Shown piece after piece: positions 26,656 through 63,865 of a stretch of 64,000 nt of DNA. The translations under genes were made by a program, and so were the position numbers. The notes beneath the pieces were generated by a model. That model was not told where the DNA came from. It ran no database searches and worked only from the letters and a program-made list of their open reading frames with translations. Within the stretch, counting starts at the first letter, position 1. Each line of letters opens with the position of its first letter. The stretch is from Guptibacillus hwajinpoensis (lineage in GTDB: Bacteria; Bacillota; Bacilli; Bacillales; Guptibacillaceae), in NCBI RefSeq assembly GCF_001039475.1, contig NZ_LELK01000001.1, positions 593,466-657,465 on the forward strand, read 5' to 3'.

Positions 26656-27348
26656 TTACAAATTAGAAATAACGACATAAGTCGTTCGAATCGGTCCATG
26701 CATCCCTACGACAAGATTCATTTCGATATCTGCACTATTACTAGGACCTGATATGAAGTTAACACAAGTAGCTGGAAATTCACCTTCTTTCATAAGTAGG
26801 TGGATTTTTCTTGTTGCTTGCGACATTCTCGGGACAATTAAACTCTTAGGAACGAGTGCAATATAGGTCGTTGGAAGAAGACTAACCGACCTGCCCTGAT
26901 TTTCGTTGCTAAACAACACAATAGTACCAGATTCTGCTAATGCCAAGTCACAGAAAGTAATCCCAATATCTGCACTCTCTGTTTGCGCCACATTGTCTTT
27001 CATTCGAGGATCCCATTTATGAATGGTCGCATCTGTTTTACTGAAAATATCGTACTGATGAAACCGTTCATCTTTCCATGCCGATATAGACTTGCCATTA
27101 TATGATTTGACTCGTTCATGGATCACATCTGCTAATTGATCTGATTCTGTTTCGATTACATCAGTATGAATGGTCTCACATTGCTTCTTAAATACAGTAA
27201 CCAGCTCGTCTTGTGAGGCATTCTTCAGAATTTGCCATTGGGGCTGATGTTTCCATGTTGGACGTTCTACCGTCTTTGGCGTGCTCCGACCCAAATTTTG
27301 TGCAAGAGAAGTTAGAAATGATTCGCGATTATAAATTTGTTCACTCAA
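26656..27348 (-). CDS. lutC: Lactate utilisation protein LutC (LUD domain)
   Basis: 230 residues. LUD domain with [25 protein letters not shown] (about 132-155) and [13 protein letters not shown]. Part of the LutABC complex that oxidises L-lactate to pyruvate. I start it at TTG 27346-27348: GGAGGAG lies 6 bases upstream and the start overlaps the lutB stop. The open frame extends further upstream into lutB without a ribosome binding site. Confidence 0.9.
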
Positions 27349-28765
27349 ATGACTCCTCCTTCTGTCTCTTTTTGAACCAATCTCGAAAGCGCTCATTGTT
27401 TGGAGCTGGCATGTCACGAATTGTTGTCCACGCTTTTAGTGGTCCCGGACCTTTCGTTAGAAAACTGTTTGTTTGAAATGGCAATGAAAGAAATGGTGCT
27501 AGCTTCGTACCTACTTGATATAAAATGGGTAGCGTTGTTCCGTATTGAAACCCTCTCATGGCAATTTTTTCAGCTGAAAGTCCTCTTCCTTCAATGATGT
27601 TCTTTCGATGCTTGTTTAAGAGTTCATGCAATGGTATTTTAACAGGGCATGCATCTGTACAGGCGGCACAAAGCGTTGATGCAAATGGTAATTCACCGTA
27701 CTCTTCATACCCCCCAAGTAATGGACTTATAACAGCACCGATCGGTCCTGGGTAAATTGATCCGTAACCGTGGCCACCAACGTGTCTATAAACAGGACAT
27801 ACGTTAATGCATGCTGCACAGCGGATACAGTGAAGTGCTTCTTGAAATTCCGTTCCAATGATGTTCGATCTTCCATTATCAACTATCACAAGATGAAACT
27901 CTTCAGGTCCATCACCTTCTAATGGTGATTTAGGTCCCGATAATGCTGTAACGTACGTTGTTAACTTTTGTCCAACAGCACTTCGGCTAAGGAGGCTAAT
28001 CATAACGTCAAGTTCTTCCCATGTAGGGACGATACGTTCCATTCCCATTACCGTTATTTGTGTTTTAGGAAGGGTTGTTGCTAGCCTCGCATTTCCTTCA
28101 TTTGTGACAAGGGTAATGGTTCCAGACTCTGCTACTGCAAAATTGCATCCTGTTATGCCTATATCTGCTGAAAGAAATTCTTTACGTAATTTTTCTCTAG
28201 CGAATAGGGTCAATTCTTCCGGTTTGTCTGTGTTTAAATAGCCGAGTTTCTCCTTAAAGACATCTCGAATTTGGGATTTGTTCTTATGTAGGGCCGGAAC
28301 GACAATGTGAGACGGAGGATCGTGATCATCAACTTGAAGAATATACTCTCCAAGGTCACTTTCAATGACATCGCATCCTATTGACTCTAACGCTTCATTC
28401 ATACTTATTTCTTCAGTAACCATCGACTTAGATTTAATGATTTTCTTTCCATTTTTACGCTTCACAACCTTTTGGATATAGTGATTGGCCTCTTCAGCCG
28501 TTTTAGCGAAATAAACATGCCCACCGTTCTCTTTTACTTTTTCACTTAACTCATACAGATAATAGTCAAGATATTCAAGCGTATGTGAACGGATCTCCTC
28601 CCCTAGATTTCGCCAATCCTCCCAACTACCAAGTTCTTCTGCAGCATCTAGACGTTTCCCAAGTAAGCGCTCTTGAGCTGATCGAACAGAATCTCTCATA
28701 AACTCGTCGTTTATGCCTTTTTCAATACGGTCGTTAAATGTGGTAGTTCCAATTCTCATAGGCAT
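27341..28765 (-). CDS. lutB: Lactate utilisation protein LutB (LUD plus two [4Fe-4S] motifs)
   Basis: 474 residues. The LUD domain includes [29 protein letters not shown] (about 200-228). Two ferredoxin-like clusters follow, [19 protein letters not shown] (about 312-330) and [17 protein letters not shown] (about 363-379). Electron-transfer subunit of the LutABC lactate oxidase. Two bases separate it from lutA; AGGAG precedes ATG 28765. Confidence 0.93.
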
Positions 28766-28767
28766 GA

Positions 28768-29493
28768 TTATTTCTCCTCCCGCTGAGTAAGAACTTCTGC
28801 AATATGCATCACTTTTACTGGTTTTTGGAGGCGATTCATTCTTCCACTAATGTTCATTAAACAACCACTATCTGCGCCTATTAAAATGTCAGCGTCGGTT
28901 GATTCAATGTCTTTTATTTTTTCATCAACCATTTCTTTTGAAATCGCTACCATTTTTACTGAAAAAGTACCTCCAAATCCGCAACAGTTCTCACAGTTTG
29001 GTAGTTTTCTATAATTTAGTCCTTCCACTTCAGAAAGTAATGCTTCTGGTGCATCTTTAACCCCTAGCAGACGCGTCATGTGACAGGATTTATGGTAAGT
29101 AGCGGTGGCGTTTAATGACGCCCCAACATTGTTGACACCTAGAACATCTACAAGAAATTGAGTGAATTCATAAGAACGTTCTTTCAATGAGCGTGCTTTA
29201 TGCTGCATTTCCGGTTCATTATGAAACAGTTCCTCATATTCCGAGAACATAGCAACGCATGACCCTGAAGGACCTACAACATATGAAGAGTTTTCAAAAG
29301 CGCGAATCATGTTTCTAGCTGCTTCTTTTGCTTCTTCCCGGTAACCACTGTTAAAAGCCGGCTGGCCACAACACGTTTGCGAAAAGGGAAAATCCACTTC
29401 ACATCCTAAGCTTTCTAACACTTCAACGACGCTTTTGCCCACGTTCGGATAAAAAATATCACCAAGACATGTAACAAACAACGAAACGTTCAT
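28768..29493 (-). CDS. lutA: Lactate utilisation protein LutA (CCG domains)
   Basis: 241 residues with two cysteine-rich CCG motifs: [13 protein letters not shown] (about 39-51) and [13 protein letters not shown] (about 165-177). Such domains bind noncubane iron-sulfur clusters, as in heterodisulfide reductase HdrB. First gene of the lutABC operon, with AAAGGAGG before ATG. Promoter and operator are visible upstream. Confidence 0.92.
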
Positions 29494-29530
29494 GGTAGCC
29501 TCCTTTCTATTCCGAATGATATGCTATCAG

Positions 29531-29543
29531 GTCATCTGATGAC
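29531..29543. promoter_or_regulatory. LutR operator
   Basis: GTCATC-T-GATGAC, a perfect 13-bp palindrome, containing the TCATC-N-GATGA sequence that I recall as the LutR consensus in Bacillus subtilis. It lies about 10-20 bases downstream of the expected lutA transcription start, a roadblock position. Confidence 0.7.
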
Positions 29544-29559
29544 TATAATGGCTTCTTCC

Positions 29560-29588
29560 AGTATAAGGATAACTATTGCGCATTTCAA
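29560..29588 (-). promoter_or_regulatory. lutA: Sigma-A promoter of lutABC
   Basis: Minus strand TTGAAA (29583-29588) and TATACT (29560-29565) with a 17-base spacer, upstream of the LutR operator. Confidence 0.65.
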
Positions 29589-29618
29589 TAAATATATTGA
29601 TTTTTCTAACAATTTTAG

Positions 29619-30326
29619 TTAAATGTGATCTAAAAGGAATGTTTCCACTTCATTTAAATGGTGAAGCATCGCTTGCTGAGCTTTTTCGGAATCTTTCGTT
29701 TTAATCGCGAGGAAAATTTCTTTATGTTCAATGTAAAGTTTTTCAAGTATTGCGGCTTCAGAATAAAGAGATAACTTTCTCGTTTCTCTCATTGAATCTA
29801 CCATTAATTGAGAAACGTGATTCATTAAATCAATAAGCAATCGATTGTGTGATGCAGCAGTAATTGACATGTGAAACTGCAAATCCGCCTGCTCTCCTAA
29901 TTCACGGTGTGATACAGCTTTTTCCATATCCATAAGTGCTTGTTGAATTTGAAATAGCTCTTCCTCTGTCCTTTTTTCTGCTGCACTCGCTGCACAACCA
30001 GTTTCAAGAATTTTACGGACTTGAAGTAGTTCTATAGTATCTTGTCTATTCATCAATATACCTGTAGATAACGATTGGCTTAACGTTGATGGATCATACT
30101 GTTTGATAAAGGTACCTTCACCTTGCCGCATCTCCACTAGTCCCATTGCTCGAAGCGCACTGAGTGCTTCACGAACGGCGGATCTTCCTACATCAAATCC
30201 TTCAGCAAGCGATTGGACGGAATCAAGCTTACTACCAGGTGACAATTCACCACTTTTAATTTTATCGAGAAGCTGATCAGCTATTTCTTCATAAATTTTT
30301 CGTTTTTTTATTTGCTTATATGTCAT
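29619..30326 (-). CDS. lutR: FadR-type GntR regulator LutR
   Basis: 235 residues. Winged helix (IADQLLDKIKSGELSPGSKLDSVQSLAEGFDVGRSAVREALSALRAMGLVEMRQGEGTFI) at residues 12-72 and a C-terminal FCD domain (DLQFHMSITAASHNRLL). LutR represses lutABC until lactate is present. It is adjacent to lutABC on the same strand, and a matching operator stands between them. GGAG precedes ATG 30326 by about 10 bases. Confidence 0.88.
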   Translation of the reverse strand: MTYKQIKKRKIYEEIADQLLDKIKSGELSPGSKLDSVQSLAEGFDVGRSAVREALSALRAMGLVEMRQGEGTFIKQYDPSTLSQSLSTGILMNRQDTIELLQVRKILETGCAASAAEKRTEEELFQIQQALMDMEKAVSHRELGEQADLQFHMSITAASHNRLLIDLMNHVSQLMVDSMRETRKLSLYSEAAILEKLYIEHKEIFLAIKTKDSEKAQQAMLHHLNEVETFLLDHI

Positions 30327-30380: not shown

Positions 30381-30449
30381 GACAATTGTTGATACACAAA
30401 GTAAAGATGAATGTGAGAACAACCAAAGAAAGTAGCAAGACCGTAAGAA

Positions 30450-30478
30450 AAGCTGATGAATGAGATCTTCATCAGCTT
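30450..30478 (-). terminator. Terminator after the OsmC-family gene
   Basis: AAGCTGATGAA / TTCATCAGCTT, perfect 11-bp arms with a 7-base loop, starting 5 bases after the TAG stop of the read-through OsmC frame. Its position supports the long reading of that gene rather than an end at the internal TGA. Confidence 0.8.
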
Positions 30479-30483
30479 CTACT

Positions 30484-30948
30484 CTATTCCTCTATGATTT
30501 CCCAATCATGTTCAAAGGCTACACAGCCCTTTAACGTCTGAGCAACAGGACATCCTCTTTCGAAAACCTGTAGTGCTCTTTCTGCCGCTTCACGCTTACC
30601 TTTAGGGATTGTTAGTTTATAGTGACATTTGATTTGAGTGATTTTGAGCACACCGTCTGGTGCTTCAATGATTCCTTCGAATTGACCTGATAACTTATTC
30701 GGAAAAGTCGGTATATGGCGCGCCTCCAGCGCACCTGATAATGTACCGGTTAGTCAGCCACCTGCTGCCGCGACAATATGGTCTAGTGTCGAAGGCTGTT
30801 CGACTTCGGGAGATGCTTTATAGAACTCTTTAACCCCACCATGTACACCGTATTGAACCGGTTCTTCAAAGTTGGCAATGTATGCACGTCGATTCTTACC
30901 TTCGTCTTGTTCAATTCGTATATTAGCTATTTCAATCGGATTGTTCAT
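30484..30948 (-). CDS. OsmC-family protein with in-frame TGA at the redox cysteine: probable selenoprotein
   Basis: Read through TGA (30754-30756) the gene encodes 154 residues with residue 65 as selenocysteine. OsmC/Ohr proteins reduce organic peroxides with two cysteines. The first lies in an AAAGGC-like motif, here AAAGG followed by TGA then LTGTLSGALEAR. The second is intact at C133 (RGCPVAQTLKG). Ninety further codons keep good OsmC sequence up to TAG 30484-30486, and the terminator follows at once. The minus-strand start has GAGGAG 6 bases upstream. A GC-rich hairpin with the geometry of a bacterial SECIS element begins 18 bases after the TGA. The alternative is a fresh nonsense mutation. 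No selA, selB, selC or selD gene is in the window. Confidence 0.8.
30717..30735 (-). promoter_or_regulatory. Putative bacterial SECIS element
   Basis: Minus-strand RNA: arm GGUGCGC (30735-30729), loop UGGAG (30728-30724), arm GCGCGCC (30723-30717), seven continuous base pairs with one G-U. Beyond a 2x2 internal loop three more pairs (UAU/AUA) extend it. The apical loop starts 26 nt after the UGA and has G at its second position. These values fit the published bacterial SECIS pattern as I recall it (loop 3-14 nt, G in the first two loop bases, 16-37 nt from UGA). Confidence 0.7.
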
Positions 30949-31110
30949 TACTTTCTCCTCTCTTCTATCATATTATTTCCATAGTTTGGCGATTCCCTCA
31001 CCTGACTTTTTTAAACCGCATTCAATAAATCATTCTAAATGGCGGGAAAGTCCCCTTTTAATAGCGAATAGTAAAGATAACAAGAAAAGGTATCATCAAA
31101 GGAGGACGAA

Positions 31111-35639: not shown

Positions 35640-36788
35640 TTAGCTGTATTCCTTTCGAAGCTGACTTGCTATGATGTTTTTCTGAATTTCAGACGTTCCT
35701 TCGTAAATACGAGTAATACGCGCATCGCGGTAGAACCGTTCAATTGGGTAATCAGATACATAACCTAACCCACCATGTACTTGAAGTGCTTTATCTGCGA
35801 CTCTGTTGTACACTTCTGAGCCGTACAATTTAAGCATAGCTGCTTCCTTAATCACTTTTTCACCTTGATCAACCATCCATGCCACACGATAGGTAAAGGA
35901 ACGCAGCGCTTCAATTTCTACGCCCATTTCTGCTACCATATGAGCTACTGCTTGATGCTCAATGATTGGGACACCAAACTGTATTCGTTCTTCTACATGC
36001 TTCATGCTCATATCAAGTAGCTTTTGTGAAGATCCAAGGTTGCGTGCAGCAAGACCCGCACGCCCATTTGCTAGAATCTTCAATGCATTCACATATCCCT
36101 GCCCAACTTCGCCAAGGACATTTTCTTCTGGTACTTCACAATCCTCAAAAATCAGTTCAGCCGAGTGAGAACCTTTTAATCCCATTTTCTCTTCTACTGC
36201 TCCAACATTGAACCCTGGAAAGCTTTTCTCAACAATAAAAGAAGTAATTCCTTTTGCTCCTTTTGAAGGATCTGTTGTAGCCATCACAGTAAAGACGTCA
36301 GCTTCAATTGCGTTCGTTATATAATGTTTTGTTCCGTTTAAAATGTATTTATTTTCAACTTTCACTGCAGTTGTTTTCAAGTTCGACGCATTTGATCCTG
36401 CCGAAGGTTCTGTTAATGCAAAAGCCCCAATTTTCTTTCCAGTTGCCATATCTGGAAGGTATTTATTTTTTTGTTCCTCATTTCCAAGCTCTACAATACC
36501 AACTGAACCAATTCCAGTGTGGGCTCCAATTAATGTTGTGTACCCATTGTGCGTTTTCCCTAGTTCTTCATAAAGGGCACATTTCCCAACCATTCCAATA
36601 CCAAGACCTCCGTATTCTTCAGGAATACTTAAACCGAATAGTCCCATCTCTTTTGACATCTCAATAATTCGCTCTGGTATCCTGTCTTCTTTCTCAATTG
36701 TCATAGCGACTTTCTCAACTTCATTTTGCACAAAATTTCGGATCGTGGTTTTTAGAAATGCAATTTCTTCATCTAATTGGAAATCCAT
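35640..36788 (-). CDS. Acyl-CoA dehydrogenase
   Basis: 382 residues. FAD/substrate signatures GAFALTEPSAGSNASNLKT (about 128-146) and QVHGGLGYVSDYPIERFYRDARITRIYEGTSEIQ (about 338-371), with the catalytic glutamate in YEGT. Introduces the 2,3 double bond in acyl-CoA. No enoyl-CoA hydratase is in the cluster, so that step must come from elsewhere. Nine bases after the HBD stop. Confidence 0.93.
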   Translation of the reverse strand: MDFQLDEEIAFLKTTIRNFVQNEVEKVAMTIEKEDRIPERIIEMSKEMGLFGLSIPEEYGGLGIGMVGKCALYEELGKTHNGYTTLIGAHTGIGSVGIVELGNEEQKNKYLPDMATGKKIGAFALTEPSAGSNASNLKTTAVKVENKYILNGTKHYITNAIEADVFTVMATTDPSKGAKGITSFIVEKSFPGFNVGAVEEKMGLKGSHSAELIFEDCEVPEENVLGEVGQGYVNALKILANGRAGLAARNLGSSQKLLDMSMKHVEERIQFGVPIIEHQAVAHMVAEMGVEIEALRSFTYRVAWMVDQGEKVIKEAAMLKLYGSEVYNRVADKALQVHGGLGYVSDYPIERFYRDARITRIYEGTSEIQKNIIASQLRKEYS

Positions 36789-36797
36789 TGCTATCCC

Positions 36798-37658
36798 TCA
36801 ATTCGTATATGTATAGTCATAGAAACCTTTACCACTTTTGCGGCCGAGTCGACCTGCCTTAACGTATTTTATTAGTATTGGACATGGTCGATATTTCTCC
36901 CCAAGCGTTTCATAAAGGTAGTGCATATTACGAAGGCGCGTATCTAGTCCGACTAAATCTGCAAGCTCCAGTGGTCCCATCGGATGATTCAGACCCAGTT
37001 TCATGGCTTTATCAATATCTTCAGGTGTACCAACACCTTCCATAACCATATTCATAGCTTCATTTCCGATTAAGCAATTCATTCGGCTAACCGCAAATCC
37101 TGGAAATTCATTGATTTTAACGCATTCTTTTCCTATCGACTTTCCAAAGCCAATGGCTTTATTAATCGTATCTTCAGATGTTTCTAGCCCACAAATCACT
37201 TCAATTAGCTTCATCTTTGGAACAGGATTAAAGAAATGAAGTGCCAGGCATTTCTCAGGTCTACTTGTTTGCGCCGCTATTTCAGTTGGACTCATTGTAG
37301 ACGTATTTGTCGCAAGGATCGCATGAGGTGGAGTTAGATCGTCTAGTTGTTTGAAAATGCTTGTTTTGAGCTCCATGATTTCAAGAACCGCTTCAATGAC
37401 TAAATCCCTATCTTTTGCCGCTTCGCTTATTTCTGTTGTGAATTGAATAGTGTCTCGACGTTCGTCTGCCATTTCTTTCGATACCCATTCTTTCCTAACG
37501 GCACGTTCAAATTGTTTTCTAATATCTTCCTCTGCATTGTGTAAAGACGTGTTGCTAACATCTTGAACGATCACCGAAAGTCCTGCAGCCGCTGCTGAGT
37601 AAGCAATTCCTCTCCCCATTGTTCCGGCTCCGATTACTGCGATGTTTTGTATGGTCAC
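36798..37658 (-). CDS. 3-hydroxyacyl-CoA (3-hydroxybutyryl-CoA) dehydrogenase
   Basis: 286 residues. N-terminal NAD fold IAVIGAGTMGRGIAYSAAAAG (about 6-26), catalytic histidine in ALHFFNPVPKMKLIEVI (about 139-155), and C-terminal domain with NHPMGPLELADLVGLD. Start taken at GTG 37656-37658, eight bases after GAGGAG; the frame's first GTG overlaps that site. First gene of the cluster. Confidence 0.92.
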   Translation of the reverse strand: MTIQNIAVIGAGTMGRGIAYSAAAAGLSVIVQDVSNTSLHNAEEDIRKQFERAVRKEWVSKEMADERRDTIQFTTEISEAAKDRDLVIEAVLEIMELKTSIFKQLDDLTPPHAILATNTSTMSPTEIAAQTSRPEKCLALHFFNPVPKMKLIEVICGLETSEDTINKAIGFGKSIGKECVKINEFPGFAVSRMNCLIGNEAMNMVMEGVGTPEDIDKAMKLGLNHPMGPLELADLVGLDTRLRNMHYLYETLGEKYRPCPILIKYVKAGRLGRKSGKGFYDYTYTN

Positions 37659-37761
37659 TAGTATCACTCCTCAATTAATGTAATCGCTTACAATTTTGTA
37701 TTTGGTTTACTTCTCCTTTTTCTAGATAACTTCCTTTAATCTGAACTCATTTCCGAAAAAA

Positions 37762-62505: not shown

Positions 62506-62695
62506 GACTGTCCCCCATCGTGGTGTGTTTTATTTCTCTTCTACTTATTTCGAAAGATGATGAGAAAGTCCTGCCTTACACCATATTTTACATAGTTCTT
62601 TTTACTTGCTTTTATTTACAAGAAGGTCCATTAAAGGAAATGATCGAACAATCAAGAAGATTTCTATAATCAATAAAAATAAGGAGGGATGAATC

Positions 62696-63865
62696 ATGAC
62701 TAATATCGGAAATGATGTTCAATTTAATATTTATAAACAGATGCACTCTCCAGATCCAAATCGTCTTCCTACGCAGTTTGAAGAATGGCAAAAGCAAGCA
62801 AGAGAAATTCTTGAAGATGGACCGTACGAGTATGTTGCTGGTGGGTCTGGTGGTGAAGATACCGTTCAATCGAATAGAGAGGCTTTTAAGCGATGGAATA
62901 TCTTACCCCGTGTATTTAGAAATGTGGAAGATCGCAATTTAAAACTCGGGTTATTTGGTGACATGCTACCTTCACCAGTTATGATTGCTCCAATTGGGGT
63001 ACAATCTATTATTCATAAAGAAGGGGAACTTGCTACGGCTAGAGCTGCTGCTTCAATGGGAGTACCTTATATTGCGAGCTCTGCTTCAACGTATTCGATG
63101 GAAGAAATTGCAGAAGTAATGGGAGATGCACCAAAGTGGTTCCAACTTTATTGGAGTAGTGAACCTTCTATAGCAAAAAGTTTTGTAGAACGTGCTGAAC
63201 ATGCTGGGTATACCGCGATCGTTGTTACACTTGACACACCAATGATGGCATGGAGGGAATTAGATCTTAAAAATGTTTATTTGCCATTTCTAATTGGAGA
63301 AGGTATTGGCAATTACCTAACAGATCCTGCATTTCGAGCAGGGCTCCGCGTTCCCCCAGAAGAAGATTCAATGGGCGCGATTATGCACTGGACACGAGTA
63401 TTTGGTCATGCAGGATTAACATGGGAAGATCTTGCTGAGCTCAAAACCTATACTTCTCTGCCTATTATTTTAAAAGGCATTCTTCATCCGGAAGATGCGA
63501 AGCTTGCTTTGAAATATGGTGCTGATGGGATCATCGTTTCAAACCATGGTGGACGCCAGGTAGATGGTGCCATCGCTGCTCTTGATGCATTACCTGCTAT
63601 AGTTGAAGCCACGAATAACCAAGTCCCTGTTCTAATGGATAGCGGAATTCGTCGTGGAGCTGATATTTTTAAAGCACTCGCTCTTGGAGCAAAAGCGGTT
63701 CTCATCGGAAGACCATGCATGTATGGGCTTGCTGTAGCGGGTGAAACAGGGGTAAGACAAGTGATGAACAACCTACTTGCAGACTTTGATTTAACAATGG
63801 CTCTATCAGGTTGTCGCGACTTGAATGAAGTAAATAAAGGCATGATTCTTCCAGCAGATCGCTAA
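62696..63865 (+). CDS. Lactate 2-monooxygenase / FMN-dependent 2-hydroxyacid oxidase
   Basis: 389 residues. FMN-binding alpha/beta barrel: DGPYEYVAGGSGGEDTVQSN (about 41-60), PVMIAPIGVQSIIHKEGE, KWFQLYW (about 142-148), GYTAIVVTLDTPMMAWRELDLKN (about 166-188), LKGILHPEDAKLA (active Lys), GADGIIVSNHGGRQVDGA (catalytic His, about 274-292) and DSGIRRGADIFKALALGAKAVLIGRP. Converts lactate to acetate and CO2 in the monooxygenase branch, or lactate to pyruvate with H2O2 in the oxidase branch. Monocistronic with AAGGAGG site and its own terminator. Confidence 0.9.
   Translation: MTNIGNDVQFNIYKQMHSPDPNRLPTQFEEWQKQAREILEDGPYEYVAGGSGGEDTVQSNREAFKRWNILPRVFRNVEDRNLKLGLFGDMLPSPVMIAPIGVQSIIHKEGELATARAAASMGVPYIASSASTYSMEEIAEVMGDAPKWFQLYWSSEPSIAKSFVERAEHAGYTAIVVTLDTPMMAWRELDLKNVYLPFLIGEGIGNYLTDPAFRAGLRVPPEEDSMGAIMHWTRVFGHAGLTWEDLAELKTYTSLPIILKGILHPEDAKLALKYGADGIIVSNHGGRQVDGAIAALDALPAIVEATNNQVPVLMDSGIRRGADIFKALALGAKAVLIGRPCMYGLAVAGETGVRQVMNNLLADFDLTMALSGCRDLNEVNKGMILPADR

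Follow-up and report, generated by a model that had tools for sequence, protein, structure and literature searches.

A predicted OsmC-family selenoprotein gene with a conserved in-frame TGA in Guptibacillus hwajinpoensis and other Bacillales

The 64,000-nucleotide stretch of the Guptibacillus hwajinpoensis genome analysed here (contig NZ_LELK01000001.1, positions 593,466 to 657,465; hereafter the window, to whose numbering coordinates refer) carries on its minus strand an OsmC-family gene whose reading frame is interrupted by a single TGA, and this gene very probably encodes a selenoprotein, an OsmC-fold redox protein that receives selenocysteine (Sec) at its position 65 under the direction of SelB. 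A sequence-only reading of the same DNA had suggested a likely selenoprotein, and the suggestion is now supported by conservation of the TGA, a conserved hairpin behind it, the presence of the sel genes and co-occurrence with selA. The frame, the TGA and its conservation, the hairpin and the sel genes can all be read from the genomes themselves. The features on which the argument turns are the following.

30484 to 30948, minus strand: predicted selenoprotein gene of the OsmC family, 154 codons with Sec65 counted, with its ATG at 30948 and its TAG ending at 30484
30754 to 30756, minus strand: in-frame TGA at codon 65, predicted to specify selenocysteine where OsmC has its first redox cysteine
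30717 to 30735, minus strand: putative bacterial selenocysteine insertion sequence (SECIS) hairpin, GGUGCGC-UGGAG-GCGCGCC, which begins 18 nt beyond the UGA, apical loop at about 30724 to 30728
30550 to 30552, minus strand: codon of Cys133, the second (resolving) cysteine, in the motif RGCPV, opposite a Cys of 1ukk and invariant in alignments

Open reading frame (ORF) calling with table 11 splits the gene into 30948-30754, which ends at the TGA, and 30651-30484, which has a late GTG start in the same frame; when the TGA is taken as a residue, a single 154-residue frame (30948-30484) results, with its sole TGA at codon 65. Translation thus bears out the earlier description of an OsmC frame broken by one TGA at 30754-30756, to which we add the strand. 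The placing of that TGA at the first catalytic cysteine, with the second cysteine retained, also held: in a phmmer alignment with 1ukk (E 0.0004) residues 65 and 133 each lie opposite a Cys, and both are invariant in alignments of 20 and 30 sequences, the larger consisting of the window protein and 29 of 80 loci fetched from other genomes. With the TGA supplied as Cys, the Pfam OsmC match (PF02566) spans it, covering residues 51-147 (E 4.6e-13, 49.9 bits against a cut-off of 27.5), and invariant residues, C133 among them, continue downstream from Gly68. An AlphaFold2 model built from the 30-sequence alignment had a mean predicted local distance difference test score (pLDDT) of 93.3. A structure search with it gave 63 PDB matches at E <= 0.001, the best being 2onf (E 8.1e-10); the top 12 had E values from 8.1e-10 to 2.1e-8 and query template modelling (TM) scores of 0.65-0.80. 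The best 50 of the 63 shared 9-20% identity with the query and were titled OsmC or Ohr, except 1ml8, 2egt and 2ql8, which have structural-genomics, hypothetical or putative redox titles. By this model, the protein has an OsmC fold with two redox residues, 65 and 133.

The TGA is not a peculiarity of one strain. All 14 genomes of the genus, our own included, have one match bearing exactly one TGA, at 80-99% identity. The family sample, which adds one genome to these 14, likewise shows the TGA in 15/15. Of the 299 genomes sampled from the order, 65 have a match at E <= 1e-3; all 36 matches at E<1e-50, from 35 genomes, carry one TGA, and apart from broken or partial copies in G097, G270 and G205 the others are distant (23-35% identity) and have no stop. 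Thirty-three loci from the genus, family and order were read codon by codon, namely 30 of the 36 close order matches and three genus genomes outside the order sample, and the TGA is at codon 65 in every one, the other six close matches being known only to contain one TGA. Among the 398 genomes of the phylum sample 11 have a match: all intact close matches (G000, G417, G340 twice, G608 and G665) have the TGA, the diverged G665 gene retaining GG-U-LAGTL and the same hairpin, while the rest, apart from one broken gene in G097, are at E 8.9e-7 or worse and have no stop. A scan of one genome per species (84,980 species), which needed an exact HGGVK[EDQ]FY or CPVAQTLK stretch, found 89 relatives, of which 80 were kept, and the TGA codon is present in 80/80. 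The alignment of homologues that had been proposed as a check therefore returns TGA in 33/33 and 80/80 loci. No close relative with Cys at this codon was seen among those 80 of the 89 relatives, and the nine unseen could include Cys forms; the only stop-free OsmC relatives seen are remote, some of them with a Cys near the site. Record titles among the kept relatives include Pseudalkalibacillus, Thalassobacillus, Mesobacillus, Fictibacillus, Planococcus, Marinithermofilum and others, as well as Candidatus Frackibacter and Bacillota and Terrabacteria metagenome-assembled genomes (MAGs). Bacillales-type OsmC genes also occur in records titled Chryseobacterium sp. ISL-80 (L102) and Pseudomonas sp. 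ISL-84 (L137), and the title of the former looks wrong. Two copies, each with the TGA, are found in Marinithermofilum abyssi (L079, L082), in G340 (L146, L155) and in G033.

Beyond the UGA, the hairpin sits where a bacterial SECIS should be, and we regard it as a putative SECIS. The 33-locus and 80-locus sets, which share genomes, together with five phylum loci give 118 loci, with genomes fetched twice among them, and 89 distinct 48-nt stretches; the broken G097 gene (L148, L156) lies outside this set. The locus pattern required the 5' arm of the hairpin, and no locus failed it. The TGA is present in 118/118 loci, six core pairs are possible in all of them, and the loop begins UGU in one locus and UGG in the other 117; among the criteria for bacterial SECIS elements in the available text of the 2005 Sargasso Sea study is a guanosine in a small apical loop (PMC1088965). 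Across the 89 distinct sequences the core pairs are formed in 534/534 cells, a value of 100% that was reached by 1/500 shuffles, with slid versions at <=69.1%. Three of the pairs are invariant and two show one-sided variation; the sixth changes on both sides, G-C giving way to A-U in two sequences that are related to each other. Codon usage points more firmly to the hairpin than covariation does. In the 33 loci L74 is CTG in 33/33, A76 is GCG in all 31 that have Ala there, and A73 is GCG in 31 and GCA in 2, these two being the loci with the compensated pair; G72 is restricted to GGT or GGC and R77 to CGC or CGT. Observed codon entropy, taken as a ratio to the expected value, runs from 0 to 0.54 at codons 72-77, against 0.54 to 1.18 at tested codons outside 64-77; codons 64 and 66, which flank the TGA, likewise show bias (0.41 and 0.50). 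This synonymous freeze is, from the sequences compared, stronger evidence for the hairpin than the covariation.

The genome encodes the machinery that Sec insertion would need. The sel genes had been named as something to look for genome-wide, and selA (571.9 bits), selB (352.5 bits), selD (418 bits) and tRNA-Sec were all found, the three protein matches exceeding their cut-offs. The tRNA-Sec gene at C14:909320-909412 scores 59.4 bits against the Rfam cut-off of 47 and is also called by ARAGORN, as SeC(tca). All four genes are clustered within 8 kb, at C14:901652-909412. The selD gene (L016:5420-6469) has an in-frame TGA of its own, at SKGG-U-GCK with a hairpin behind it, and the default ORF listing begins it only past that TGA. 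Only selD and the OsmC gene were met as UGA genes in this genome, in which no full search for further ones was made; neither the formate dehydrogenase (Fdh) alpha match over the cut-off nor the two weaker Fdh-alpha matches have an internal stop. A phosphonate-type ATP-binding cassette (ABC) transporter, consisting of an ATPase, a permease and a PF12974 binding protein, lies between selD and selB (L016:6510-8915, on C14), and our guess would be that it imports a selenium compound. In the order sample, all 37 genomes in which the OsmC gene is present, intact or as a broken or partial copy that extends to the TGA, have selA over the cut-off, against 139/299 genomes overall (hypergeometric p 2.6e-14, uncorrected for kinship). 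These 37 genomes belong to 13 families; with the gene in 13 sampled families of the order and in other Bacillota, the earlier view of it as an unusual example in one Bacillaceae has to be given up.

An explanation for the frame that invokes no recoding is that a Cys codon has mutated to, or been misread as, TGA, TGC and TGT being one base away from it, and a truly broken copy does exist in G097. We give this almost no weight. The same-codon TGA recurs in 33/33 and 80/80 loci, and since these come from other species a base error is untenable. No second stop was found across the 80 loci: in 70 of them the TGA is the single stop of a 138-codon stretch, and the remaining 10 likewise have one stop each. 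Nor does the rest of the gene show the decay that would have marked a pseudogene. In all 105 pairs of 15 loci (from 14 genus genomes and one genome of another family) amino-acid identity is 0.827 before the TGA, 0.857 after it and 0.845 beyond the hairpin; the same three parts show differences of 0.084, 0.093 and 0.107 at codon positions 1 and 2, and third positions differ in 0.421 of codons after the TGA versus 0.522 before. The contrast between identity and third positions implies that the distal part is preserved as protein. That constraint also bears on the proposal that the real product is a 64-residue truncated protein, with the downstream frame separate or regulatory. Termination at the UGA is expected when selenium is lacking, and a downstream ORF with a GTG start is available (30651-30484), but the codons past the TGA are constrained as protein, with invariant residues from G68 that include C133, the first listed start past the TGA is 34 codons downstream, and the OsmC domain crosses the TGA. 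We consider such a truncated product very unlikely.

Another possibility, to which we attach about the same slight probability, is that the UGA is read through without Sec, by a near-cognate tRNA for Trp or Cys, or that termination is leaky and the short product is a regulated output. Computation cannot identify the inserted residue, which leaves this explanation some room, but against it stand the full sel set and its co-occurrence, through selA, with the gene, a hairpin constrained at codon level at the place of a bacterial SECIS, and the position of the UGA at the redox Cys site. An altered genetic code is also unlikely, because TGA still terminates genes in these lineages: the own final stop of the OsmC gene is TGA in 4/33 loci (L049, L050, L054, L055).

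A number of observations do weigh against the selenoprotein interpretation or limit what can be drawn from it. About 100 selA genomes of the order sample have no OsmC gene, and it follows that this gene is not the sole use of Sec in the order. The gene can also be lost: in G097 it is split, with the TGA in one part and an extra TAA in the other, while selA is kept, and partial matches were found in G270 (64 residues, with the TGA) and G205 (41 residues, ending ahead of the TGA site, without a stop). Single-sequence folding of the hairpin is modest (-14.1 kcal/mol, z -2.33, with 6/200 shuffles as stable; z -2.11 and again 6/200 for a 57-nt piece), and in L137 the minimum-energy fold of the 48 nt pairs otherwise. 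Covariation is weak, since one such double-sided pair also arises in 23/500 shuffles and in the slid versions -3, +2 and +3 (of six), and no variation at all is seen in three of the six core pairs. At gathering scores Rfam has no match in the window. Its tRNA-Sec model exceeds the cut-off in 5/14 control genomes, so that Rfam and ARAGORN jointly carry the case for the tRNA. The NCBIfam OsmC subfamily TIGR03562 scored 27.2 bits against a cut-off of 85.8, and the peroxidase role is thus argued from family membership alone.

With these points considered, selenocysteine at position 65 remains our strongly favoured interpretation, and a mechanism can be outlined from it. SelB carrying Sec-tRNA(Sec) would bind the hairpin just past the UGA and direct selenocysteine into position 65 of the OsmC-fold protein. 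In OsmC and Ohr proteins hydroperoxides are attacked by the first Cys, with which the second forms a disulfide. Sec65 would replace the peroxidatic cysteine and Cys133 would be the resolving cysteine; the most likely chemistry, by analogy, is that the selenol reduces a peroxide via a selenenyl-sulfide between residues 65 and 133. We infer the Sec insertion itself, the catalysis, a redox partner and the substrate in this scheme. Selenol peroxidase activity is suggested by analogy with the family, and the chances that the substrate would be an organic hydroperoxide are about even on the same basis.

Two further elements flank the gene.

30955 to 30959, minus strand: Shine-Dalgarno-like AGGAG upstream of the ATG at 30948, from sequence inspection
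30445 to 30480, minus strand: terminator-like hairpin directly past the TAG, -19.4 kcal/mol and z -2.87 in the fold of 30430-30490

The second had been read as a terminator. A stable hairpin is indeed there, 2/200 shuffles being equally stable, but its status as a terminator did not carry over, as a consensus terminator scan listed none; the element is a hairpin, unproven as a terminator. Adjoining the OsmC gene, at 26656-30326, are genes for a CCG-domain protein and a GntR/FCD regulator and two more genes, a group that we take to resemble the lutABC lactate-use operon with its repressor. Screening of the window for TGA-interrupted frames marked three places, the OsmC gene being one. At 35643-37670 two long frames are joined, which look like neighbouring genes, and at 62564-63862 the left part has only 42 codons. 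A tblastn search of plasmids gave no match, and neither did a comparison with PHROGs.

Among characterized relatives, the OsmC/Ohr thiol peroxidases (1nye, 1ukk, 6ecy and others) have the fold in common with the predicted protein, and its two redox residues are placed as in 1ukk; they differ in having Cys at the first redox site where the present clade has Sec, and the present protein falls below the OsmC subfamily cut-off. The structure 1ml8, which we take to be a YhfA-type OsmC protein (COG1765), ranks sixth as a fold match, and by sequence it falls short of significance (E 0.17). The GGC motif of remote relatives (L151, L153) matches the Sec clade at the Sec site, and these relatives have Asp four residues past the Cys, versus Thr in the Sec clade. 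It is possible, although we lean slightly the other way, that the clade is a separate Sec-only OsmC subfamily spread across Bacillales, other Bacillota and a soil-MAG lineage, that it is a main reason why some of these bacteria keep the Sec machinery, and that it represents an uncharacterised selenol-based peroxide reductase. The gene offers a testable reason for cultivable Bacillales to retain selenium coding. As ORF calling stops the gene at the TGA, annotations of many Bacillales genomes may show this conserved redox protein in pieces.

A Sec-using aerobe is unsurprising in itself, because the 2016 survey, in the text available, reports Sec users among both aerobes and anaerobes (40.4% and 35.8%; PMC5029168). 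The 2006 survey has a table entry of three selenoproteins for Firmicutes/Bacillales, and the accessible part of its text has no mention of OsmC (PMC1794560); our literature search, which had supplements and most subscription papers outside its reach, found no description of an OsmC selenoprotein of Bacillales. OsmC-like selenoproteins as such have been known since 2005, when three sequences with a UXXT motif were described from the Sargasso Sea (PMC1088965); the motif is given as UxxT for those from the Global Ocean Sampling (GOS) data in 2008 (PMC2398784), and reviews of 2022 (PMC9312934) and 2026 (PMC13188914) list the group, as far as the accessible portions of these papers extend. The statement in the sequence-only reading that such proteins had been predicted from metagenomes was therefore sound, but the motif is not the same, UxxT being missing in the present clade. 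The published rows for OsmC-like proteins read 3, 10, 0, 17 and 5, 3, 161, in which the later figures, as we read them, count Cys forms, the column headings lying outside the text available. In what these sources describe, the metagenomic proteins (COG1765/PF02566) resemble the present clade in belonging to the OsmC family, in having Sec and in having a bacterial SECIS just past the UGA, whereas the present clade has an invariant Gly68 at U+3 and Thr at U+4 (20 and 30 alignment rows) and no close Cys form has been seen for it. This separation from the published OsmC-like selenoproteins is one of motif description and not of aligned sequences, and by it the Bacillales proteins form a clade without UxxT that has been seen only in the TGA form.
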